Below, piece after piece: positions 882-29,014 of a stretch of 45,297 nt of DNA. The notes under the pieces were generated by a model. It saw only the letters and a program-made list of their open reading frames with translations, searched no databases and was not told the origin of the DNA. This stretch comes from Candidatus Sulfotelmatobacter sp. GTDB lineage: Bacteria > Eisenbacteria > RBG-16-71-46. The stretch covers positions 1 to 45,297 of the forward strand of contig DATKAB010000107.1 in assembly GCA_035498555.1 (NCBI GenBank), written 5' to 3'. Every line of letters starts with the position of its first letter. Position 1 is the first letter of the stretch. The translations under genes and the position numbers were made by a program.

Positions 882-2707
882 TGCGCACCAGCCTGCGCGG
901 GCGGATTCTGGTCATCACCGTGCTCACCCCGCTGACGCTGGGGCTGGCCGCCTACATCACCGTCCATCGCAACGTGCAACAGCACGTGGACTCGACCAGC
1001 ATCCACGAAAACCTTCGCCACAGCGCGTCGGTGTTCGAGAGCATGCTGGCGGTGCGCCAGCGGGCGCTGGTCGGCGGCGCTCAGGTGATCGCCCAGGATC
1101 CGCGCTTCTTCTCGCTGGTGATGCTCGGCCCCTCGCAGCAGGATCGGCGATTCATCGCGACCGTGAAGGGGATGGCGCGCGACTTCAACAAGATCACGCG
1201 CACCGACCTGTTCGAGGTGTTCGACCGGAACGGAAAACTGCTGGCTTCGGTGGGCGAGAGCCACAGCAGCCGCGAGGCCCGGGAGGCCATGGTGCGAGCC
1301 TCGCTGCGCGGCCATCTCGCCGCCGGCGTGCTGGTACAGACCGACGACCACTTCCAGGCCGCGTGCACGACGGTGCGCGCCGACGGGCGGATCGTGGGGG
1401 CGCTGCTGCTCGGCGCTCAGATCGGCGACGGGCTCGCGAACGAACTCCGCACCCAGATGCGCAGCGAGGTCACGTTCATTTCGGACGGACGGATCACCGG
1501 CACCACGCTGACGGAGCCCGCCGATCGCAAAGCCCTGCTCGAACGCATCAAGGGTCTGGGCACTTCGGCCGGCGAGCTGGCCGCGACCGGCGTGATCAAG
1601 GTGAAGGGCAAGTCCTCGACCTGGCTCACCCTGGCGGGTCGCATCCCCGGCGCGAGTGAAGGCGAGAGCGAGCTCTACGTCATGCAGCGGTCGTACGACC
1701 CCGAGATCGAATTCCTGCACCGCATGCAGCTGGACCTCGGCCTGCTCGCCGTGCTGGCCGTGCTCGGCGCGCTGTTCACCGGGTTCGTGCTGTCGGAGGA
1801 GATCACGCGCCCGATCGGTAAGCTGGTGCGAAGCGCGCAGGAGATGGAGCGTGGCAATTTCGACTGGCCGATCGAGGTGAAGAATCACGACGAGATCGGC
1901 TACCTGGCCCAGCGCTTCCGCGACATGCGAGAACGAGAGCGCGCGTTCGTGAGCAGCCTGCAGGAGGCTGCGCGACTGAAGAGCGAATTCATCAGCGTGG
2001 CCTCGCACGAGCTGCGCACGCCGATCAGCGTGATCCAGGGCTACCGTGATCTGCTCGCCGACGGCAGCCTCGGCTCGCTCGAACCCCGCCAGACGCAGGC
2101 TTTGAGCGCGATCGCGGACTGCTTGCGCCAGCTCACGCAGGTGGCCGAAGAGGCCACTCACGTCGCGCAGGTCGAGGGCGAGCGCATCGTCGTCAATCCT
2201 CAGCCCTACCCGGTCACCAGCCTGATCGACCAATCCTGCGCCCAGGCCATGACCACCGCCTCCGGCCGCAAGGTGGAAGTGAAGCGGAAGGTCGAGGACA
2301 AGCTCGGCAACATGTGGATCGATCCGCCGATGATCACTCAGGCTCTGGTGCACCTGATCGGCAACGCGATCCGCTTCACTCCCGATGGCGGTCGCGTCGA
2401 GGTGAAGGCCTTCGAGGAGCACGGCCATCTGACGGTTCAGGTGCGCGACACCGGCGTAGGCATCGAGGCCGACAAGCTGAGCCGCCTCTTCGACCGGAGC
2501 CTGCTGCTGCGCGACTCGCGCGAGCACCATTCGTCCTCGTCGCTCGAGTTCAAGTCGTCCGGCCTTGGCTTCGGGCTCGCGATCGTGCGCGGCATCGTCG
2601 AGGCGCACGGCGGCACCGTGAGCGCGGAGAGCAAGCCGAACAAGGGCAGCACGTTCACGATCCGCTTGCCGCGGGTCGAGCCGAAGAGCCAGCCCAAGGC
2701 CGCCTAG
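881..2707 (+). CDS. Membrane sensor histidine kinase (Cache-like sensor, HAMP, HisKA, HATPase)
   Basis: A 608-residue kinase starting at the ATG that overlaps the cupredoxin stop. A longer open frame reaching upstream to 38 is spurious. Transmembrane helix 1 is about residues 7-26; a periplasmic region of about 255 residues follows, with a Cache-like look (FDRNGKLLASVGES, later ADGRIVGALLLG). Helix 2 is about 285-305, HAMP about 306-355. HisKA carries the H-box ASHELRTP with phospho-acceptor His376, and the ATPase domain has the N-box around Asn495 (LIGNAIRFTPDGG), the G1 box DTGVGIEAD and a GFGLAIVRGIV stretch. All catalytic boxes look intact. No cognate response regulator is adjacent. Coupling to the cupredoxin suggests that redox or copper state is sensed, which is inference. 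Confidence 0.88.
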   Translation: MRTSLRGRILVITVLTPLTLGLAAYITVHRNVQQHVDSTSIHENLRHSASVFESMLAVRQRALVGGAQVIAQDPRFFSLVMLGPSQQDRRFIATVKGMARDFNKITRTDLFEVFDRNGKLLASVGESHSSREAREAMVRASLRGHLAAGVLVQTDDHFQAACTTVRADGRIVGALLLGAQIGDGLANELRTQMRSEVTFISDGRITGTTLTEPADRKALLERIKGLGTSAGELAATGVIKVKGKSSTWLTLAGRIPGASEGESELYVMQRSYDPEIEFLHRMQLDLGLLAVLAVLGALFTGFVLSEEITRPIGKLVRSAQEMERGNFDWPIEVKNHDEIGYLAQRFRDMRERERAFVSSLQEAARLKSEFISVASHELRTPISVIQGYRDLLADGSLGSLEPRQTQALSAIADCLRQLTQVAEEATHVAQVEGERIVVNPQPYPVTSLIDQSCAQAMTTASGRKVEVKRKVEDKLGNMWIDPPMITQALVHLIGNAIRFTPDGGRVEVKAFEEHGHLTVQVRDTGVGIEADKLSRLFDRSLLLRDSREHHSSSSLEFKSSGLGFGLAIVRGIVEAHGGTVSAESKPNKGSTFTIRLPRVEPKSQPKAA

Positions 2708-2754
2708 CCCTGCCGGCCGGGCGCGCCTGACACACCCCGCGCCACCTTACCGCT

Positions 2755-3618
2755 CTAGAGCAGCTGTCTCAGGTGCTCCAGGTCGCCGACCAGCTCCGAC
2801 ATCAGCTCGGAAAGCACGGCGTCGGTCAGCTCGAGGCGCTGAATCGCGCGCACCTCGAGTAGATTCAGCTCGGGACTCGGGTGGGTGTGGGCGCCGATCT
2901 TGCGCGAGATCGAGTTCGCCGCCTGAACGCACAGCAGCAGGCGATCGTCGACCGGTGGCTCGGCGTCGTGGTGATGGAGCGCCACGTGGCAGGCGCTCTC
3001 GGGGATGCGCCAGTCCGACAGCACGTGGTGTCCGAGCTCGGGATGGAGGGTCTCCATCAGCTCGTCGCGCGCGGCGGCAGTGAGCTTCTGGCCCTGGCCC
3101 TCGGCGAGCAGGCGATCGAACGCTCGGAACAGGAGCAGCTTTCCGGTGTCGTGGAGCAGCCCGGCGAGGAACGCATCGCTGCCATCCACGCCGCGTTCCG
3201 TGCCAATCCGTCGCGCGCCCTGCGCCGTGACGATCGAGTGATCCCACAGCGCGTGCAGAATCGCCTGCTTCTCGGGATCGTCCGACACGAAGTTGGCCTT
3301 GTGCGCCACCATGGTCACGATCGCCGTCACCTCGCGCACGCCGAGGCGCGCGATCGCGATGCGCAGGTCGGACACTTCGCCGAGTCCGCCGAAGATCGCC
3401 GAGTTCGCCACGCGCAGGATCGCCGTGGTCAGAGCCGGATCGCTGCTGAGCAGCACCACCAGCGGTCCGACCGGGCCGTTGTAATCCTCACGCAACAGCC
3501 GGAGCACCTTGGCCGCCACCGGGGGCATCGGCGGCAGCGTGAGCTTGCCGGCGTTGACGGCATCCCGAATGCTGCGGGAGAGCGAGGGCTTCGGGGTGCC
3601 AACCTGTCTCAGGGTCAC
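2755..3618 (-). CDS. HDOD-domain signalling protein
   Basis: An HDOD protein of 287 residues. The hallmark opening 'LTLPPMPPVAAKVLRLL' is followed by helices containing 'DPALTTAILRVANSAIF' and 'IAIARLGVREV', then 'FLAGLLHDTGKLLLF', where the His-Asp pair is kept. HDOD proteins act in bacterial signalling, often tied to motility, chemotaxis or c-di-GMP, and usually have no demonstrated enzyme activity. An open frame extends to a TTG at 3642, but the GTG at 3618 has AAGGAG at good distance and agrees with a sigma-28-like promoter whose -10 element lies at 3646-3653, so I prefer 3618. The gene is divergent from the motAB operon and convergent with the histidine kinase. Confidence 0.83.
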   Translation of the reverse strand: MTLRQVGTPKPSLSRSIRDAVNAGKLTLPPMPPVAAKVLRLLREDYNGPVGPLVVLLSSDPALTTAILRVANSAIFGGLGEVSDLRIAIARLGVREVTAIVTMVAHKANFVSDDPEKQAILHALWDHSIVTAQGARRIGTERGVDGSDAFLAGLLHDTGKLLLFRAFDRLLAEGQGQKLTAAARDELMETLHPELGHHVLSDWRIPESACHVALHHHDAEPPVDDRLLLCVQAANSISRKIGAHTHPSPELNLLEVRAIQRLELTDAVLSELMSELVGDLEHLRQLL

Positions 3619-20369: not shown

Positions 20370-21190
20370 GGCGTCTCCGTCCCGCTGCCGAGCCACAGGG
20401 TTTCCTCGGGCGCGACGTCCCAGTCGGCGGCGGCACGCAGATCGGCCGCCAGATCCTGGCCGTCGGTCACCCAGCGCATCGGCACCCGCAGCTCGGCGGC
20501 CAGCTCGAACCAGGTGCGCTCCTCGGGGAATTCATCCAGCTTGGTCACCAGCAGATGCGTGGCGCCGCGCGTACGGAATTCGGCGAGCATGCGTCGCGCT
20601 CGCAGCGGATCGAGACCGGCGGGCGCGGTGAGGTGGATCTCGGCGGGCCGCAAGGCTTCGAGCAGCCGCCAGGTCTCACGGGTGTCGGCATCGCGCGCCG
20701 GACCGCGGCCCGAGGTATCGATCAGCACGGTGCGCCGGCCCTTGAGGGCGCGCAGCGCGCGCTCGAGATCGGCTTCCTCGTGCGCCACCGCCATCGGCAC
20801 GCGCGACAGTCTCGTCACCTGCCGCATGGCCTCGACCGCTCCCACCCGGTGGGTGTCGAGCGCGAGCACGCCGACCTTGCGTCCCACTTCCTTCGGACGC
20901 CGGAGCAGCTTGGCGATGGTGGTGCTCTTGCCGGCGCCGGTCGGGCCGACCAGCGCGATCAGGCGCGAGCCCGATGGCGACAGCTCGGGATGCTGCGGCG
21001 AAGGCGCGAGCGGCGCGGGCCGCGGCCGTGGAGCGAGCCGCGCGGCGCTCTCGGCGTCGGCGGCGGTCAGCTCGAAGCCGCGCGGTCCCGCGCGGCGCAC
21101 ACTCAGCACAACGGCGTCCGCCCCGAGCGCGGCTCGCGCGCGCAGCAGCAGCTCGCCGGTATCCGGTCCGACGAAGGTCTCAAGCGGCAT
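20366..21190 (-). CDS. flhF: Flagellar placement GTPase FlhF
   Basis: FlhF (274 residues) is an SRP-type GTPase that marks the site of flagellar assembly. The G1 loop is 'LIALVGPTGAGKSTTIAKLL', followed by 'VGVLALDTHRVGAVEAMRQV', 'TVLIDTSGRGP' and 'HLLVTKLDEFPE'. The disordered B domain that often makes FlhF 400 residues or longer is almost absent, so it is a short form. Its first codons overlap the end of flhA by 11 bases. Confidence 0.9.
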   Translation of the reverse strand: MPLETFVGPDTGELLLRARAALGADAVVLSVRRAGPRGFELTAADAESAARLAPRPRPAPLAPSPQHPELSPSGSRLIALVGPTGAGKSTTIAKLLRRPKEVGRKVGVLALDTHRVGAVEAMRQVTRLSRVPMAVAHEEADLERALRALKGRRTVLIDTSGRGPARDADTRETWRLLEALRPAEIHLTAPAGLDPLRARRMLAEFRTRGATHLLVTKLDEFPEERTWFELAAELRVPMRWVTDGQDLAADLRAAADWDVAPEETLWLGSGTETP

Positions 21191-23351
21191 GGCTCAGCTC
21201 CCAGGTGGCGAGGTTTTGAACGGGGGTCTGCGGCGGCAACTCGGTGAGGGCGATGACCGGAAGGCGCGGCAGCACCGGCTCCACCAGACGCCGGATGCCG
21301 ACGCGCAGCCCGGGCGGCGTGACCAGCGGCGGCAGCTGGCCATCGCGCTGCGAGCGCTCGGCCAGCTCGGAGAGCGACTGGAGCGCGGTGGTGACCATGC
21401 CGGGATCGAGCGTGGGGCCGGAGTCTCGGCGCGGGCTGAACCAGTGCATCAGCGCCAGCTCGAGGCGCGGGCCCACGGTGATCGCGCGCACCGGGCCATT
21501 CGAGCCGCCGAGCAGCTCGGCGATCACGGTGGCCAGCGAACGGCGCACGTGCTCGGTGAGCGCTTCGGGATCCTTGGTCTGATCGGCGGCATCGGAGAGT
21601 GCTTCGAGAATCGTGGCCAGGTCGCGGATCGGCAGCCCCTCCCGCAACAGTCGCTGCAGCACGCGCTGCACCGTGCCCACCGAGAGCTTGCCCGGCACCA
21701 CGTCCTCGACCAGCGCCGGGTTGGTTTCCTTGAGACCGTCGAGCAGCTCGCGCACGGTCTGGCGGCTGAGCAGATCGGCGGCGTGCAACCGGATGGTCTC
21801 CATGAGATGGGTGGTCAGCACGGTGGCGGGCTCGACCACGTTCCAGCCCTGCGATTCGGCGGTGGCGCGCCGCTCGGGCGTGATCCATACCGACGGCATC
21901 TGGAAGCTGGGGTCGCGCGTGGGCGTCCCTTCCAGCGGTCCGCGAGCGCCACCGGTGTTGATGGCGAGCAACGCGCGCGTCACCAGCTCGGCACCGGCCG
22001 CGCGCACGCCGCGCAACTTGATCACGTACTCGCCGGCCTCGAGTTGGATGTTGTCGCGGATTCGCACCGGCGGCACCAGCAGGCCGATCTCGAACGCCAG
22101 TTGCTTGCGCAGGATGCCGATCCGCTGCAACAGATCGCCGCCCTGCGAATCGTCCACCAGCGGCACCAGCCCGTAGCCGATCTCGAGCTCGAGCGGCTCG
22201 ACGCTCACGATGTCGCGCACCGGCGGAGCGCCGGAGGGTGCGGCCTCGGCTCGCGACGGAGCCTCGGCCGAAGGAGCGTCGGGACGCCGGCGTCCGGCGC
22301 GCCAGGCGAGACCGGCGGCGCCGATCGCGAGCGTGAGGAACGGCAGCGCCGGAAGCCCGGGCACCAGGCCGAAGGCGGTGAGGATGCCGGCGGTGGTCCA
22401 CAGGGCGCGCGGCGCGCGCGTGAGCTGCCTGGCGATCGAGGGCGCGACCGCCGTGCCGCCCGACCCGTAAGTGACGAGGATGCCGGCCGCGGTGCTCACC
22501 ACCAGCGCCGGGATCTGCGTGACCAGGCCGTCGCCGACGGTGAGTGCGCTGAAGGTGCGCAGCGCCTCTCCCCCGCTCATGCCGAGCTGGGTGATCCCGA
22601 TCACGAACCCGCCGAGCAGATTGATGGCCGTGATCACCAGGCCGGCCACGGCGTCGCCGCGCACGAATTTCGCGGCGCCGTCCATGCTCCCGTAGAAGTC
22701 GGCGTAGCGGCTGACCTCTTCGCGGCGGCGCCGAGCTTCGGTTTCGTCGATCAGGCCGGCGCTGAGATCGGCGTCGATACTCATCTGTCGGCCGGGCATC
22801 GCGTCGAGCGTGAAGCGCGCGGCAACCTCGGCGATGCGTCCCGCGCCCTTGGTGATCACCATGAAGTTGATTACCACCAGGATCAGGAAGATCACCAGGC
22901 CGACCACGGGATTCCCGCCGATCACGAAGTTGCCGAACGCCGCGATCACCTGGCCGGCGTGCCCGGTGCTGAGGATGAGGCGGGTGCTGCTCACGTTGAG
23001 CCCGAGCCGCAACAGCGTGATGAGCAGGAGCAGGCTCGGGAAGATGCTGAACTCGAGCGGATCGCGCGACGAGAGCGTGACCAGCATGACGACGATCGAG
23101 AGCGCGAAGCTGAGCGCGAGACAGGCGTCGAGCACGAACGGCGGAAGGGGCACGACCAGCAGCGCGACCACCGCCACCACGCCCACGGCCAGGGCGGTCT
23201 CCGCGCCGGAGGAGAAGCGCGCAGCGGCAGCGGCCGCGGCCGCGGGCGCGGCGCCAGCGAGCGCGGCGCGGCCGCCGCCGCGCGCCGGCGCAGGCGTGGT
23301 GGCCGCGGGCTGGAGCGGGGCCGCCGCCGAGCTCAGGTTGACGGCGGTCAC
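21180..23351 (-). CDS. flhA: Flagellar export gate protein FlhA
   Basis: FlhA (723 residues) is the main export-gate component with a large cytoplasmic ring domain. It starts at GTG 23351, overlapping the flhB stop (GTGA). After an Ala/Pro-rich N-terminal extension (about 1-50) come eight transmembrane segments, including 'FPSLLLLITLLRLGLNVSST' and 'VVGLVIFLILVVINFMVITK'. The FHIPEP-family signature 'MPGRQMSIDADLSAGLIDET' and a following EARRRR are intact. The cytoplasmic part contains 'ELEIGYGLVPLVDD', 'RIGILRKQLAFEIGLLVPPV' and 'EVLQRLLREGLPIRDL'-like sequence. The Ala-rich extension makes it slightly longer than usual. Confidence 0.95.
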   Translation of the reverse strand: MTAVNLSSAAAPLQPAATTPAPARGGGRAALAGAAPAAAAAAAARFSSGAETALAVGVVAVVALLVVPLPPFVLDACLALSFALSIVVMLVTLSSRDPLEFSIFPSLLLLITLLRLGLNVSSTRLILSTGHAGQVIAAFGNFVIGGNPVVGLVIFLILVVINFMVITKGAGRIAEVAARFTLDAMPGRQMSIDADLSAGLIDETEARRRREEVSRYADFYGSMDGAAKFVRGDAVAGLVITAINLLGGFVIGITQLGMSGGEALRTFSALTVGDGLVTQIPALVVSTAAGILVTYGSGGTAVAPSIARQLTRAPRALWTTAGILTAFGLVPGLPALPFLTLAIGAAGLAWRAGRRRPDAPSAEAPSRAEAAPSGAPPVRDIVSVEPLELEIGYGLVPLVDDSQGGDLLQRIGILRKQLAFEIGLLVPPVRIRDNIQLEAGEYVIKLRGVRAAGAELVTRALLAINTGGARGPLEGTPTRDPSFQMPSVWITPERRATAESQGWNVVEPATVLTTHLMETIRLHAADLLSRQTVRELLDGLKETNPALVEDVVPGKLSVGTVQRVLQRLLREGLPIRDLATILEALSDAADQTKDPEALTEHVRRSLATVIAELLGGSNGPVRAITVGPRLELALMHWFSPRRDSGPTLDPGMVTTALQSLSELAERSQRDGQLPPLVTPPGLRVGIRRLVEPVLPRLPVIALTELPPQTPVQNLATWELSHAA

Positions 23352-24451
23352 GCTCTGCTCCTCGCCAGCGTGCCGAGATGGCGCAGCCCGTGGCGGCGAT
23401 GCACCCAGGCCAGGATCTCGGCGACCGCCAGGTAGAGCGCGGCCGGAATCGCGCGGCCGACGCTGGCGGTGGCCAGCAGCGCGCGCGCCACCGGACGGTT
23501 CTCGACGATCGGGACGCCCGCCTTCTCGGCGATGGCGCGAATGCGCTCGGCAATGCGACGCTCGCCCATCGCCACCACGATCGGCGCCGGCGACTCGTGG
23601 GGCGCGTAGCGCAGCGCGACCGCGATGTGGGTGGGGTTCACCACCACCACGTCGGCGTTCGGGACCTGCTGCATCATGCGACGGCGCGCGAGCGAGCGGG
23701 CGACCGAGCGCATGCGCGCCTTGATCATCGGATCGCCATCGGTCTCGCGATGCTCGCGCACCACTTCCTCGCGCGTCATGCGCAGCTGGCGATGGAGTTT
23801 GAACCACTGGAAGGCGTAGTCGAGCAGCGCCACCGCGAGGAACGCGAGCGCGGTGGTCAGCACCAGCCGCAGCGCCAGCTCGCGCAGCACGACGGCCGCC
23901 GCCTCGGGGCCGGACTGCGACAGGGCCAGCATTTCCCCGAGATGGCGGGCGAACACCGACCAGGTGACCAGCACCAGCACCGTCAACTTCAGCACCGACT
24001 TGAGGAGCTGGACCAGGCCGTCGGTTCCGAAGATGCGCTTGAGCCCGGCGGCGGGATTGAGATTCGAGAACTTGGGCTCCACCGGCTTCCACGACAGCAC
24101 GCCCCGCGTCTGCACCAGCTGGATCGCCAGGGCGGCCGCAGCCACACCGCCCGCGAACGGGAGCCAGGCGAGCAGGATGCCGGTCACGGTCTGCTCGAGC
24201 AGGGGCGTCACGCTGCTGGCGGAAAGGGGGCCGAGCGAGAACGCTTCCGTGGCGCGCTGCAGCGTCTGGCGCGCGGCGTGCGCCAGCGCGCTGCCCGCGG
24301 TGGTGCCGAGCAGCAGCGCGCCCGCGATCAGCCCGGCGGCGGCGGCCAGCTCCACGCTGCGCGCGACCTGCCCTTCCTCGCGCGCCTGCTCGAGCCGGCG
24401 CGGAGTGGGTTGTTCGGTACGTTCGCGGGTGTCGCTGCGCTCGTCGGCCAC
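23348..24451 (-). CDS. flhB: Flagellar export switch protein FlhB
   Basis: FlhB (367 residues) switches export from rod/hook to filament substrates. It begins with 'ERTEQPTPRRLEQAREEGQV', the usual N-terminal motif, and has four transmembrane segments. The autocleavage motif NPTH is at residues 272-275 in 'VVVVNPTHIAVALRY'. The open frame continues upstream into fliR in another frame, so I chose GTG 24451, preceded by GGGAG; it lies just after the fliR stop. Confidence 0.94.
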   Translation of the reverse strand: MADERSDTRERTEQPTPRRLEQAREEGQVARSVELAAAAGLIAGALLLGTTAGSALAHAARQTLQRATEAFSLGPLSASSVTPLLEQTVTGILLAWLPFAGGVAAAALAIQLVQTRGVLSWKPVEPKFSNLNPAAGLKRIFGTDGLVQLLKSVLKLTVLVLVTWSVFARHLGEMLALSQSGPEAAAVVLRELALRLVLTTALAFLAVALLDYAFQWFKLHRQLRMTREEVVREHRETDGDPMIKARMRSVARSLARRRMMQQVPNADVVVVNPTHIAVALRYAPHESPAPIVVAMGERRIAERIRAIAEKAGVPIVENRPVARALLATASVGRAIPAALYLAVAEILAWVHRRHGLRHLGTLARSRA

Positions 24452-24453
24452 GG

Positions 24454-25254
24454 TCAGTGGCTCCCGGCGGCCTGGAAGCCGTGCAGCGCCGCCGCGGTCG
24501 CGATCGGCAGGTTCTCGATCCAGCCACGAATGGTCGCGGCGATCAGCGGCATCGCCGCGGCCGAGACGATCAGGCCGATGCCGATGGTGAGCGGGAACGC
24601 CACCATCATGGCGTTGAGCTGCGGAACGGCGCGGCTCATCACCGCCAGAGCGACGTTGGCGAGCAGCAGCGCCACCATCACCGGCGCCGCGGCGCGAATC
24701 GCGCACGAGAACAGCGTGCCGGGAAGCGCGCCCAGCGCCGCCGGCGACGCCGACAGCCCGAAGCCCGAGCCCGGCGGCAGAACGCGCAGGCTCTCGGCCA
24801 GCGCCTGCAGCAACATCAGATGTCCCCCGGCACTGGTGTAGATGAGCAGCGCGAGAATCGTCTGGAACTGGGCGACACCCGAAGCCTCGAGGTCGGGCGA
24901 AGGCGCGAGCGCCTGGCCCAGCGAGAGCCCCATCTGCAGCGACAGCACCTCGCCGCCGAGTGCCACCGCCTGGATCAGCACCGCCGCGGTGAGACCGATC
25001 ACCAGCCCGACCAGGCCTTCCATGGCCATCGGCAGCGGCATCTGCAGCACCTCCTCCGGGGCCTTGACCGCCGGGCAGGAGGCGAGCAGCAACACGCTCA
25101 ACACCACCGTAATCGCGGCACGCGTCGCGCGCGGCAGCGTGCTCATCGACCACAGCGGCGCCGCCAGCATCAATCCGCCGACGCGCGCGCTGATCAGCGC
25201 GAACGCCGGCCAGCGATCGGGCCCGATCAACTGGAGCAGCGGCAGGGGGTTCAT
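24454..25254 (-). CDS. fliR: Flagellar export gate protein FliR
   Basis: FliR (266 residues) is part of the FliPQR gate. The start at 25254 overlaps the fliQ stop (ATGA), giving the usual N-terminus 'WPAFALISARVGGLMLAAPL'. Six hydrophobic segments are present, with 'GLVIGLTAAVLIQAVALGGE' and 'LLLANVALAVMSRAVPQLNA' typical of the family. flhB follows two bases downstream. Confidence 0.94.
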   Translation of the reverse strand: MNPLPLLQLIGPDRWPAFALISARVGGLMLAAPLWSMSTLPRATRAAITVVLSVLLLASCPAVKAPEEVLQMPLPMAMEGLVGLVIGLTAAVLIQAVALGGEVLSLQMGLSLGQALAPSPDLEASGVAQFQTILALLIYTSAGGHLMLLQALAESLRVLPPGSGFGLSASPAALGALPGTLFSCAIRAAAPVMVALLLANVALAVMSRAVPQLNAMMVAFPLTIGIGLIVSAAAMPLIAATIRGWIENLPIATAAALHGFQAAGSH

Positions 25255-25520
25255 GCGGCGAGGGTCGGCAGGCTGCGCAACACCTGCACCAGGTACTCGA
25301 CCAGGCGCGTGAGGGTCCATGGCAGCGTGGCGAGGAACACCAGGGCGATCAGCACGAGCTTGGGAATGAAGGTGAGCGTCTGCTCCTGGAGCTGGGTGAT
25401 CGCCTGGATCAGGCTCACCAACACGCCCACCACCAGCGCGGTGATGAGCAACGGCCCCGCCACCATCAGCGAAATGGTCACGGCATTGCGGATCATCTCG
25501 GCCGCCAGCGTCGGGCTCAT
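25251..25520 (-). CDS. fliQ: Flagellar export gate protein FliQ
   Basis: FliQ (89 residues) has the two-helix gate layout: 'RNAVTISLMVAGPLLITALV' continuing to VGVLVSLIQAITQLQEQTL, then 'FIPKLVLIALVFLATLPW'. Length and motifs are standard. It sits between fliOP and fliR, starting seven bases after the fliOP stop. Confidence 0.95.
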   Translation of the reverse strand: MSPTLAAEMIRNAVTISLMVAGPLLITALVVGVLVSLIQAITQLQEQTLTFIPKLVLIALVFLATLPWTLTRLVEYLVQVLRSLPTLAA

Positions 25521-25527
25521 CGCGTCC

Positions 25528-26796
25528 TCACCGGAAGCTCGACACCAGGTTCTGGACCACCAGCGTCCAGCCGTCGGCGAGCACGAACAGCAGCAGCTTG
25601 AAGGGCAGCGAGATCATCACCGGCGGCAGCATGAACATGCCGAGGCTCATCAGCACCGAGGCGACGATCACGTCCACCACCACGAACGGCAGGAAGATGA
25701 GGAAGCCCATCTGGAACGAGGTGCGCAGCTCGCTGGTGACGAAGGCCGAGACCACCGTCACGATCGGCAGCGCTTCGGCGGAGTCGGCGTGCTCGATGCC
25801 GCTCATCTCGGTGAACATTTGGAGGTCCTGCTCGCGGGTATTGGCGAGCATGAATTCGCGGAACGGCTGGACCCCGAGCTGGTAGGCCTGAACCTGATCG
25901 ATGCGGCCCTCCATGTAGGGTTGGAGCGCCACGCGCTGCGATTCCTGGAGCACCGGGTGCATGACCACGCCGGTGAGCAGCACCGCGAAAGCCACCAGCA
26001 GCTGAGTCGGCGGCGCGGTCTGAGTGCCGAGCGCCGAGCGCAGGAAATGGAGCACGATCAGGATGCGCGTGAAGCTGGTCATGAGCAGGAACAGCGCCGG
26101 CAGCAGCGTGAGCACGCCGATGAAGATCACCAGCCCCACCGCGCCGCTCAGGTGCAGCGCGTCGTTCCCCTCGCCGATCCGCACGTCCACCTGCGGCGGC
26201 GCGGGACCGTTGACCGAGAACGCCGGCACCGCGCGCACGATGGGACCGGCCGCGGGCGCGTTCACCACCGGGGCCGGCGGCGCCGGAGTCTTCGCCGGCG
26301 GCGTGATCCTGGTGGAAAGCGTCGCCGGTGCCGCGGCCTTCGAAGCGCTCGCCACCGGCGCGCTGGCGAGCGACGATGGGGCCGTGACCGGCGCCACTCC
26401 CGGCGCGGTTTGCGCCGAGGCGTGACCGGCGCCCACCAGCAGCAGCGCTGCGAACAGGCCGATCTTCCCGAGCCCCGGCAGCGAGATCTGGAAGCGGCCG
26501 CGCTGCGGTTCGCCCTCGCGCGCGAGCGACGCGCCGCTCGCCGCCCACTCCTCGGCGGTCAGCTCCGCCAGGGTTCGCACGCCGCTCTCGGCCATGCCGA
26601 TCACCAGCACGCGTCCCGCCACCCGCACCAGCGCCAGTCCCTGGCGCGGCCCGAGCGGCACGCGCTGCAGCACCTCGACCGGTCCGCCGCGCCCCAGCCC
26701 GCCGCCCTGCACGCGCTTGAGCAACGCGAGCGCCAGCGCCATCAGGCCGAGCGTGACGGCCAGCGCGCCGAGCATCTGCAGCACGCCACCACTCAC
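25528..26796 (-). CDS. fliP: FliO-FliP fusion protein
   Basis: One 422-residue frame holds two normally separate export proteins. Residues 1-95 have the FliO layout: a transmembrane helix at about 8-27, then 'GPVEVLQRVPLGPRQGLALV' and 'VLVIGMAESGVRTLAEL'. Residues 112-128 ('IGLFAALLLVGAGHASAQ') look like the cleavable FliP signal peptide, followed by an Ala/Pro-rich stretch to about 205. The FliP core then contains 'ALFLLMTSFTRILIVLHFLR', 'SALGTQTAPPTQLLVAFAV' and 'MFMLPPVMISLPFKLLLFVL'. No ATG or well-placed GTG lies between the parts, and the frame is unbroken. It starts with GTG overlapping the fliN stop. Signal peptidase cleavage could still free mature FliP. Confidence 0.9.
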   Translation of the reverse strand: MSGGVLQMLGALAVTLGLMALALALLKRVQGGGLGRGGPVEVLQRVPLGPRQGLALVRVAGRVLVIGMAESGVRTLAELTAEEWAASGASLAREGEPQRGRFQISLPGLGKIGLFAALLLVGAGHASAQTAPGVAPVTAPSSLASAPVASASKAAAPATLSTRITPPAKTPAPPAPVVNAPAAGPIVRAVPAFSVNGPAPPQVDVRIGEGNDALHLSGAVGLVIFIGVLTLLPALFLLMTSFTRILIVLHFLRSALGTQTAPPTQLLVAFAVLLTGVVMHPVLQESQRVALQPYMEGRIDQVQAYQLGVQPFREFMLANTREQDLQMFTEMSGIEHADSAEALPIVTVVSAFVTSELRTSFQMGFLIFLPFVVVDVIVASVLMSLGMFMLPPVMISLPFKLLLFVLADGWTLVVQNLVSSFR

Positions 26797-27095
26797 GCCT
26801 GGGCCTCGCCGTTCTCATCGCTGAGCACGCGCGTGATGCGCACGCCGAAGTGATCGCCCACCACCACGATCTCGCCCTCGGCCAGGCGGCGATCGCTCAC
26901 GTACAGATCCACCGGATCGCCGACCGCGCGATCCAGCTCGACGACCGAACCGGGCCCGAGCTGCAGGATCTCCTGCACGGTGAGCCGCGAGCGGCCGATC
27001 TCGATCACGACCGGCATGGGAACGTCGAGCAGCGCATCGAGGGCGGCCGGAGCCGCCGAGCGACCGCCGCCCGATCCAGTGTCCACGGTGCTCAT
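26793..27095 (-). CDS. fliN: Flagellar switch protein FliN
   Basis: A short FliN (100 residues) of the C-ring. The SpoA domain covers about 22-88: 'LLDVPMPVVIEIGRSRLTVQ', 'EILQLGPGSVVELDRAVGDP', 'VDLYVSDRRLAEGEIVVVGD', then HFGVRITRVL. It has no CheC-like N-terminal domain of the FliY type. Its start overlaps the fliM stop by four bases. Confidence 0.96.
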   Translation of the reverse strand: MSTVDTGSGGGRSAAPAALDALLDVPMPVVIEIGRSRLTVQEILQLGPGSVVELDRAVGDPVDLYVSDRRLAEGEIVVVGDHFGVRITRVLSDENGEAQA

Positions 27096-28069
27096 ACGAT
27101 CCTCCCTTCACGAACGCGAGTGAGTCCCGACTCCTTCGAATGCTTCACGGTTTCCGAGATGCGCACGCCCACGTGTCCGTGCAACTGCCCGAGCGCGCCG
27201 CGGTGCACCACCCGGCCGTTGACCAGCAGATCGAACGGCGCGTCGGCCGGGTGCAGCGTGTGAACGATCTGACCGGGGGCGAGCGCGAGCAGGGCGCGCG
27301 CGCTCAGGCGCAGCTCGGGGAAGCGCACGCGCACCTCGGCGCTGGCCTGTTTCAGGCGATCCTCGATCTGCGCCCGCGAGGCCGCGCCGGCCGAGGGCGC
27401 GGCGTCGCGGATGCGCGATCCGAGCGCCGCGATCGGCAGGGCGACCGCCAGATCGCGGCGCTCGCCCGCCAGCAGCACTTCGGCGTGGGTCACGAGCTGA
27501 ACGTCCTCCGCCGGCAGTCCGATCAACTCCGGATCCGCGGCGAAGCTGCCGCACTCGATGGTGGTGGGCTGCACCGTGCTCCAGGCTTCGCCGAGGAGGC
27601 GCAGCACCTGCTCGGCGAGATGGCGGATCAGGGCCTGCTCGAACGCGGTGAGCGCGCGCCGCGGCGGGGCGCCGTGGCCGGAGCCCCCCAGCAGGCGTTC
27701 GACCAGCGCGAGCGCCAGCTCGTTGCCCAGGTCGAGCACGCCGCCGGGCTGCGCGCCGGCGACGCGAATGACGAAGGCCGCGCCGGGGGTCTCGAGCGCC
27801 GAGGCCAGCTCTGCGCCGCTCACGGTCTCGACGCCGCCCGAAACCACCTCGATCGGAAGCTGGAGCACGGTGGCGAGGTGCACTTCGAGCGCGCGCAGAA
27901 AACGATCGTGCACCGCTTCGAGGCGCGCGTGGACCGGGCGCGAGAGCGGCAGGGGTCGCGCGAAGTTCCAGAGCCGCGGCGCGGGAGACGGCTCCGCCTC
28001 GGGCGCATGACCGGGCAGCAGCGAATCGATGTCGCGCTGCGAGAGGAGCGACGGGCTGGACGGGCTCAT
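27092..28069 (-). CDS. fliM: Flagellar switch protein FliM
   Basis: FliM (325 residues) is the C-ring protein that receives phospho-CheY. The N-terminal 'LLSQRDIDSLL' is the CheY-binding peptide (usual form LSQxEIDALL). The CheC-like middle domain (about 35-225) contains 'LGNELALALVERLLGGSG', and the C-terminal SpoA domain has 'LLALAPGQIVHTLHPADAPF' and 'HVGVRISETV'. The conserved switch peptide implies that the cell has CheY, although no chemotaxis genes are in the window. The start overlaps the fliL stop. Confidence 0.94.
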   Translation of the reverse strand: MSPSSPSLLSQRDIDSLLPGHAPEAEPSPAPRLWNFARPLPLSRPVHARLEAVHDRFLRALEVHLATVLQLPIEVVSGGVETVSGAELASALETPGAAFVIRVAGAQPGGVLDLGNELALALVERLLGGSGHGAPPRRALTAFEQALIRHLAEQVLRLLGEAWSTVQPTTIECGSFAADPELIGLPAEDVQLVTHAEVLLAGERRDLAVALPIAALGSRIRDAAPSAGAASRAQIEDRLKQASAEVRVRFPELRLSARALLALAPGQIVHTLHPADAPFDLLVNGRVVHRGALGQLHGHVGVRISETVKHSKESGLTRVREGRIV

Positions 28070-28734
28070 TGCACGACGAACTGCGGGAGGAACACGCGCA
28101 CCGGGACGTTCATGACCCGCTCGATCGAGGCCTCGATCTCGTGCCGAAGAGTGTCGCGCGCGCCCTGCTTGAGCAGGACTTCGAGGCTCTGGCGCTCGAG
28201 CGCCGAGATCACCGCGTCGCGCAGCTCGGCGTCGCGCTCCTTCATCGCCGCCTGCAGCGTCTTGTCCGACACCTCGACGGCGACCGACGCCATCAGGAAC
28301 CGCGTGCCGTTGGAGCCGGCCGGGTTCACGATGATGTTGTCCATGCGGTAGGTGGCGGGCTTTTCGTTGCTCTTCTTGCCCTTGTCCGCCTTGGAGTCGC
28401 CCGAGCCGGACCGGTTCGCCTCCGGCGCTTCCGCGTCAGCGGCGGGTTTGGCTTCCGGCCTCGCGCGGCTGGCGGCGACGATGCGGGGCGCCACCAGGAA
28501 GTCGCCGATCGCGGCCCCGCCGAGCAGCGCCGCCGCCGTGACTGCGAACAGGATCGGAAGCGCGGGGGCTCCGGCGGGCGCCGAGGCCGTTTCGCGCTTC
28601 GCTCCCCCCTCGCCCTTTTCCGCCCGTTCGGGGTGGTCGCCCTTCTCGGGCTTGTCGGGCTTCCCGGTCTTCTCCGGCTTTTCAGCCGCGTCGCCCTTCG
28701 CGGGCTTCGCTTCCTGCCTCGGACTGTCACTCAT
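28066..28734 (-). CDS. fliL: Flagellar basal-body protein FliL with a Lys/Glu/Pro-rich cytoplasmic tail
   Basis: FliL (222 residues) associates with the stators. One transmembrane helix lies at about 55-77 (ILFAVTAAALLGGAAIGDFL), and the periplasmic domain contains 'YRMDNIIVNPAGSNGTRFLM', 'ASVAVEVSDKTLQAAMKERD', 'ELRDAVISALERQSLEVLL' and ends in 'PVRVFLPQFVVQ', as the family does. The cytoplasmic N-terminus (about 1-48) is an unusual low-complexity run of Lys, Glu, Pro and Gly. The start is the ATG at 28734, with GGAGAA upstream; a longer frame exists without a ribosome site. It is the first gene of its operon, behind a sigma-54 element. Confidence 0.92.
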   Translation of the reverse strand: MSDSPRQEAKPAKGDAAEKPEKTGKPDKPEKGDHPERAEKGEGGAKRETASAPAGAPALPILFAVTAAALLGGAAIGDFLVAPRIVAASRARPEAKPAADAEAPEANRSGSGDSKADKGKKSNEKPATYRMDNIIVNPAGSNGTRFLMASVAVEVSDKTLQAAMKERDAELRDAVISALERQSLEVLLKQGARDTLRHEIEASIERVMNVPVRVFLPQFVVQ

Positions 28735-29014
28735 GCGGCGTTCTCCGGGGACGAGGCCGCTCGCGGCGCGCGAGGGCCTCGCTACCATTGAGCAACCGAT
28801 GTACCACGCGCGCGGAGGAGCGGATTCGCTGCGCGAGCCGGCCTCGGGGATGTCGCCATCTCGCCTGATTGCCGCGGGTTGGGGGCGCGGCGCGGGGCAG
28901 GTGGCGCGGGCAGCGTGCCTCCGGCTGCCGAGGCGGGCCGCGGCGCGGGCGCCGAGGAGGAAGGGTCTGCCGGATGCGACCGGCGAATTCTGCCGCCGGC
29001 CGAAAAACGCCGGA
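28735..29014. other. Intergenic region between flgE and fliL
   Basis: No coding sequence is supported. On the minus strand this region holds the flgE terminator-like hairpin (its start), then the sigma-54 promoter of the fliL operon at 28791-28806 and a 57-base leader. A small flbD gene, which often follows flgE in other bacteria, is not here. Confidence 0.6.
28791..28806 (-). promoter_or_regulatory. Sigma-54 promoter of the fliL operon
   Basis: The minus strand reads TGGTACATCGGTTGCT: one mismatch to TGGCAC-N5-TTGCW, with exact GG-N10-GC spacing. It lies 57 bases before the fliL ATG and just downstream of the flgE terminator-like hairpin, so it is where a new transcript should begin. Confidence 0.8.

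Follow-up and report, generated by a model that had tools for sequence, protein, structure and literature searches.

A FliO-FliP gene fusion with an internal signal-peptide-like helix, conserved in Gemmatimonadota and in one family of Eisenbacteria

Results

The fused gene and its operon

The window, i.e. the whole stretch of 45,297 nucleotides analysed here, carries a flagellar operon in which fliL, fliM and fliN lie upstream of a fused fliO-fliP open reading frame (ORF), and fliQ, fliR, flhB and flhA downstream (Table 1). These neighbours identify the export gate as flagellar rather than as that of an injectisome. The window FliL has a long low-complexity N-terminal tail, rich in Lys, Glu, Gly and Pro, ahead of its membrane helix. 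The fused ORF, on the minus strand, starts with a GTG at 26796 and continues uninterrupted for 422 codons; a TGA at 25528-25530 ends it.

Table 1. Features of the flagellar operon and of the fused fliO-fliP gene in the window
Feature	Position	Strand	Basis or remark
fliL	28066..28788	-	PF03748
fliM	27092..28069	-	PF02154
fliN	26793..27095	-	PF01052; overlaps fused ORF by four bases (GTGA)
Fused fliO-fliP ORF, 422 aa, GTG start, TGA stop	25528..26796	-	One frame with both domains; same fusion in 87 distinct homologues
FliO transmembrane helix 1, residues 3-31	26704..26790	-	Hydropathy; AF2 helix 3-31
FliO cytoplasmic beta domain, residues 40-79, four strands	26560..26679	-	Pfam PF04347 at 25-102; AF2
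Predicted internal signal peptide, residues 99-128	26413..26502	-	R/K n-region, h-region IGLFAALLLVGAG, c-region AHASA; AF2 helix 110-122
Pro/Ala-rich linker, residues 129-217, probably disordered	26146..26412	-	AF2 pLDDT; alignment
FliP core, residues 218-422	25531..26145	-	Pfam PF00813 at 226-417; TIGR01103 at 226-421
fliQ	25251..25520	-	PF01313
fliR	24454..25254	-	PF01311
flhB	23348..24454	-	PF01312
flhA, start codon approximate	21180..23291	-	PF00771

Both domains are found inside this one ORF. The N-terminal part belongs to the FliO family, since Pfam FliO (PF04347) scores well over its cut-off (E 2.1e-12, 47.4 bits against 22) and the AF2 model shows a single membrane helix followed by a beta domain, with strands at residues 40-49, 52-59, 62-69 and 72-79 (pLDDT mostly 84-87). 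The NCBIfam FliO equivalog TIGR03500 (3e-14, 52.8 bits) falls narrowly below its cut-off of 55.25. The C-terminal part is a complete FliP, matched over the full length of the profile by Pfam FliP (PF00813; E 2.8e-72, 243 bits against 26.9) and passing the curated cut-off of the FliP equivalog TIGR01103 (247 bits against 217). The initial annotation had thus rightly placed FliO and FliP in a single 422-residue frame, without stating the strand. By likeness to Salmonella FliO (PMC2947984), helix 1 is expected to be oriented N-out/C-in. Across residues 118-197 pLDDT is mostly below 50, and the Pro/Ala-rich linker, which is probably disordered, would form the periplasmic N-terminus of mature FliP. 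The AF2 model of the fused protein is of moderate confidence (pLDDT 63); it backs the fold of FliO and the disorder of the linker, and is silent on cleavage. The segment from FliO to the signal helix shows a coding bias by codon position (GC3 0.96), and a FliO profile search found no second FliO in the window genome, the fused copy being its sole FliO.

Distribution of the fusion

Among 47 genomes of Eisenbacteria, the phylum of the window, seven carry a FliP of the fused clade. Six of these hold the fused gene on a single contig. The seventh, G003, has FliO at the end of one contig and FliP at the end of another, and the two ends share a repeated stretch across the junction, which is consistent with the fusion. 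Seven further genomes of the window's class have separate fliO and fliP genes and a different FliP. In Gemmatimonadota, where 395 genomes were searched and their FliP loci then read out, the fusion is present in most flagellated members: it was found in 84 of 95 resolvable genomes, a count that leaves aside 8 genomes in which contig ends interrupt the locus. Of the resolvable genomes without it, five have a FliP of this clade in a frame separate from that of FliO, and six have an unrelated FliP. Overall, 87 distinct FliP of one clade, from Eisenbacteria and Gemmatimonadota, carry the fusion. The search for its spread that the initial annotation had suggested reveals it in most flagellated Gemmatimonadota and in one Eisenbacteria family.

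The linker between FliO and FliP is open in the fusion frame in all 87 homologues; of the two remaining forward frames, one is open in 12 of them and the other in 45. The open frame is therefore not due to chance. In 14 genomes of the clade, the FliO search returned one match each over the Pfam cut-off, either fused or at a contig end (the latter in G003 and in the Longimicrobiales genome G065); G060 has an extra sub-threshold match, which contains a stop. The fragmentation of the window genome, in 219 contigs, could speak for an assembly or sequencing artefact. We find this scarcely credible, since the same fusion occurs in the 84 Gemmatimonadota genomes and the seven Eisenbacteria of the clade, some of them on multi-megabase contigs, and since the repeated contig ends of G003 agree with it. 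Two genomes that look complete, represented by L187 (contig of 4,716,552 bp) and L193 (4,636,964 bp), both have the fusion. An assembly frameshift at the junction, which the initial annotation had considered as a possible refutation, is therefore ruled out, as 87 independent homologues share the fusion, some of them in very long contigs; only the locus L173 of genome G397 looks frameshifted.

One genome, G367, holds two fused genes (C197:5289-6437 and C107:88142-89281), and therefore perhaps two flagellar systems. Six Gemmatimonadota genomes (G066, G074, G076, G068, G070 and G072; loci L221-L226) have a FliP-family gene that is unrelated and forms a long branch; no FliO was found near it, and it possibly belongs to a different flagellar or type III system. 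In Planctomycetota and in a Bacillota-like phylum, FliP frames are mostly of ordinary length, and among some of the longest frames, which were inspected one by one, all but one are unfused; rare fusions could thereby have been overlooked. The exception, L233 (positions 1787-3023) in the Bacillota-like genome G939, is fused, with Pfam E-values of 7e-11 for FliO and 1.5e-81 for FliP. Its internal signal helix is KK-rich and has no start codon immediately before it.

Origin and re-splitting

In a tree of 152 FliP-core sequences, computed by a quick method without bootstrap and with an arbitrary root, the 87 fused sequences of Eisenbacteria and Gemmatimonadota form one branch (SH-aLRT 100), within which 9 contig-end cases and 5 unfused sequences are nested. 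This supports one old origin of the fusion in the clade. Judged by the same tree, the fusion in L233 is a second, independent event. Four of the unfused sequences, L144, L145, L146 and L148 (genomes G359, G252, G086 and G088), are sisters whose nearest relative, L158, is fused; in all four, the end of fliO and the start of fliP overlap or nearly so, directly before the signal peptide. Given their nested position and this placement of the fliP start, the gene was most simply split again, and the loss in one lineage indicates that the fusion is not indispensable. The fifth, L173, has a FliP almost identical to that of a fused relative, with the FliO and FliP frames mutually shifted, and its split is probably a sequencing frameshift.

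Internal start codons

In the window frame, residues 8, 19 and 68 are encoded by ATG, and GTG codons occur as far as residue 73. The initial annotation's claim that there is no internal ATG is therefore literally wrong; it is right in its substance, as no ATG, GTG or TTG occurs at residues 74-120 of the window frame, where an ordinary FliP start would fall. In many relatives an ATG, GTG or TTG occurs no more than 30 codons from the signal helix, as would be expected if FliP came mainly from internal initiation and the fused product were made incidentally, after loss of the fliO stop codon. However, several relatives as well as the window lack a well-placed one, and start codons just upstream of the helix are found at chance frequency, with one present in 52% of homologues and in 47% of control windows of the same length. 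Shine-Dalgarno pairing of <= -5 kcal/mol is likewise near background, at 34% for start codons preceding the helix against 22-27% at in-frame codons elsewhere; the same threshold is reached at 52% of fliO and 44% of fliQ starts, for which the best of several candidate codons was taken. Moreover, in the absence of a fliO stop, FliO itself can only arise as the fusion. Internal initiation was therefore rejected as a general rule, and we regard it as very unlikely to be the main source of FliP. About half of the relatives, not including the window, do have an in-frame start near the helix, so some of them may also make free FliP.

A predicted signal peptide at the junction

Between the FliO and FliP domains lies an n-h-c signal peptide with an AxA site, the arrangement expected of a polyprotein processed by signal peptidase I. 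In the window, the junction reads KIGLFAALLLVGAGHASA/QTAP (the slash marks the predicted cut), that is AHASA/Q, between A128 and Q129 (coordinates 26413/26412), and the window genome encodes a signal peptidase I. Junction statistics were collected from 85 fused sequences with a clear helix between FliO and FliP. The net charge of the n-region is at least +1 in 98% of them, and the motif [small]-x-[AGS]/Q is found in 75 of the 85, against 24% of control windows taken from the same linkers. It sits 2-7 residues past the h-region (10th-90th percentile). The internal signal-peptide-like helix of the initial annotation is thus supported, and the predicted site lies within residues 125-130, near which it had proposed to look for one. 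The linker helix looks like a cleavable signal peptide whose site is conserved across the clade, a prediction drawn from motif statistics rather than from a trained signal-peptide predictor.

The initial annotation had left the choice between a cut precursor and a FliO tethered to the gate. If the fusion stayed uncut, the signal-like helix would be a second FliO anchor, and about five FliO domains would hang by their linkers under each finished gate. The long disordered linker would permit this, and the motifs speak for cleavage only indirectly. Against tethering, the helix is short and weakly hydrophobic, with an uninterrupted hydrophobic run whose median length is 14 residues, compared with 24 in the membrane helix of FliO itself, and with a best 19-mer of 1.69 against 2.58 for FliO TM1; the conserved AxA/Q site would be needless for an anchor; and the finished Salmonella basal body is without FliO (PMC5542435, PMC5542437). 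We therefore judge tethering to be rather improbable, and the evidence, in the form of the motif statistics, favours a cut by signal peptidase.

Discussion

Our results suggest that one gene gives rise to a single membrane precursor holding both FliO and FliP, and we consider it likely that signal peptidase I cuts this precursor into FliO and mature FliP, with FliO made beside FliP, in equal number, and freed by the cut. The FliO helix would enter the membrane N-out/C-in, keeping the beta domain in the cytoplasm, and the former signal peptide of FliP would re-enter it N-in/C-out. Given the N-out/C-in topology of Salmonella FliO (PMC2947984), the order of FliO helix, cytoplasmic beta domain, signal helix, periplasmic linker and FliP that we infer is topologically consistent. 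Once the precursor is cut after A128, FliO would keep a short hydrophobic stub at its C-terminus, and mature FliP would begin with a long Pro/Ala-rich stretch in the periplasm. Co-synthesis might be of benefit by placing one FliO beside each new FliP; the fixed 1:1 stoichiometry put forward in the initial annotation would hold for synthesis only. The cut would release FliO, as an assembly chaperone, once the gate assembles. In Salmonella, FliO helps FliP to assemble and is absent from the finished gate (PMC5542435, PMC5542437), which makes a cut that frees FliO the simplest reading. It is conceivable, though we hold it unlikely, that the cut is late or partial, FliO remaining covalently on FliP until the gate is correctly assembled. 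If so, each FliP subunit would carry its own built-in assembly chaperone, and cleavage by signal peptidase would be the step that releases it.

That two genes are fused is strong evidence for joint function of their products, and this fusion has persisted throughout a phylum and arisen independently a second time. It thus supports the notion of FliO as FliP's dedicated assembly partner, a role that is still debated because FliO is absent from the finished Salmonella gate and because FliP levels in Campylobacter are independent of FliO. Moreover, profile-based annotation may report FliP only, so that FliO may be recorded as missing in Gemmatimonadota. If it is cleaved, the fused protein would be a polyprotein of a kind rare in bacteria, one from which signal peptidase releases two membrane partners.

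A known case of this kind is Bradyrhizobium FbcH, a cytochrome b/c1 precursor for which the cut by signal peptidase has been shown experimentally. It is likewise a polyprotein of two membrane partners split at an internal signal peptide; in contrast to the present case, it serves a respiratory complex.

The Salmonella proteins are from the same Pfam families, with a FliO made of an N-out helix and a cytoplasmic beta domain and a FliP whose signal peptide is cleaved off immediately ahead of a Gln, as predicted here (PMC2947984, PMC5542437); the cut lies between residues 21 and 22 (PMC2947984). They differ in being encoded by two genes, in having the signal peptide at FliP's own N-terminus and in lacking a long Pro/Ala linker. 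The domain architecture of FliO also varies elsewhere, by the N-terminal additions of AMIN and LysM described in a 2025 survey (PMC12403147), whose sections covered here mention no FliO-FliP fusion. Our literature search returned no description of the fusion in Gemmatimonadota or Eisenbacteria, and the sole natural fusion mentioned was that of Buchnera. In a statement citing Shigenobu et al. 2000, PMC2947984 gives FliO and FliP of Buchnera sp. APS as, likewise, one fused fliO-fliP gene. Buchnera is a single symbiont with a reduced genome, whereas the fusion reported here is an old trait of single origin in Gemmatimonadota and one Eisenbacteria family. The present fusion also has a conserved, predicted internal signal-peptidase site; the Buchnera gene is considered here as described in PMC2947984. 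A fliO-fliP fusion as such was thus already on record for Buchnera; what appears to be new is its age across a whole phylum, the conservation of the predicted internal cleavage site and the fact that the fusion arose more than once.
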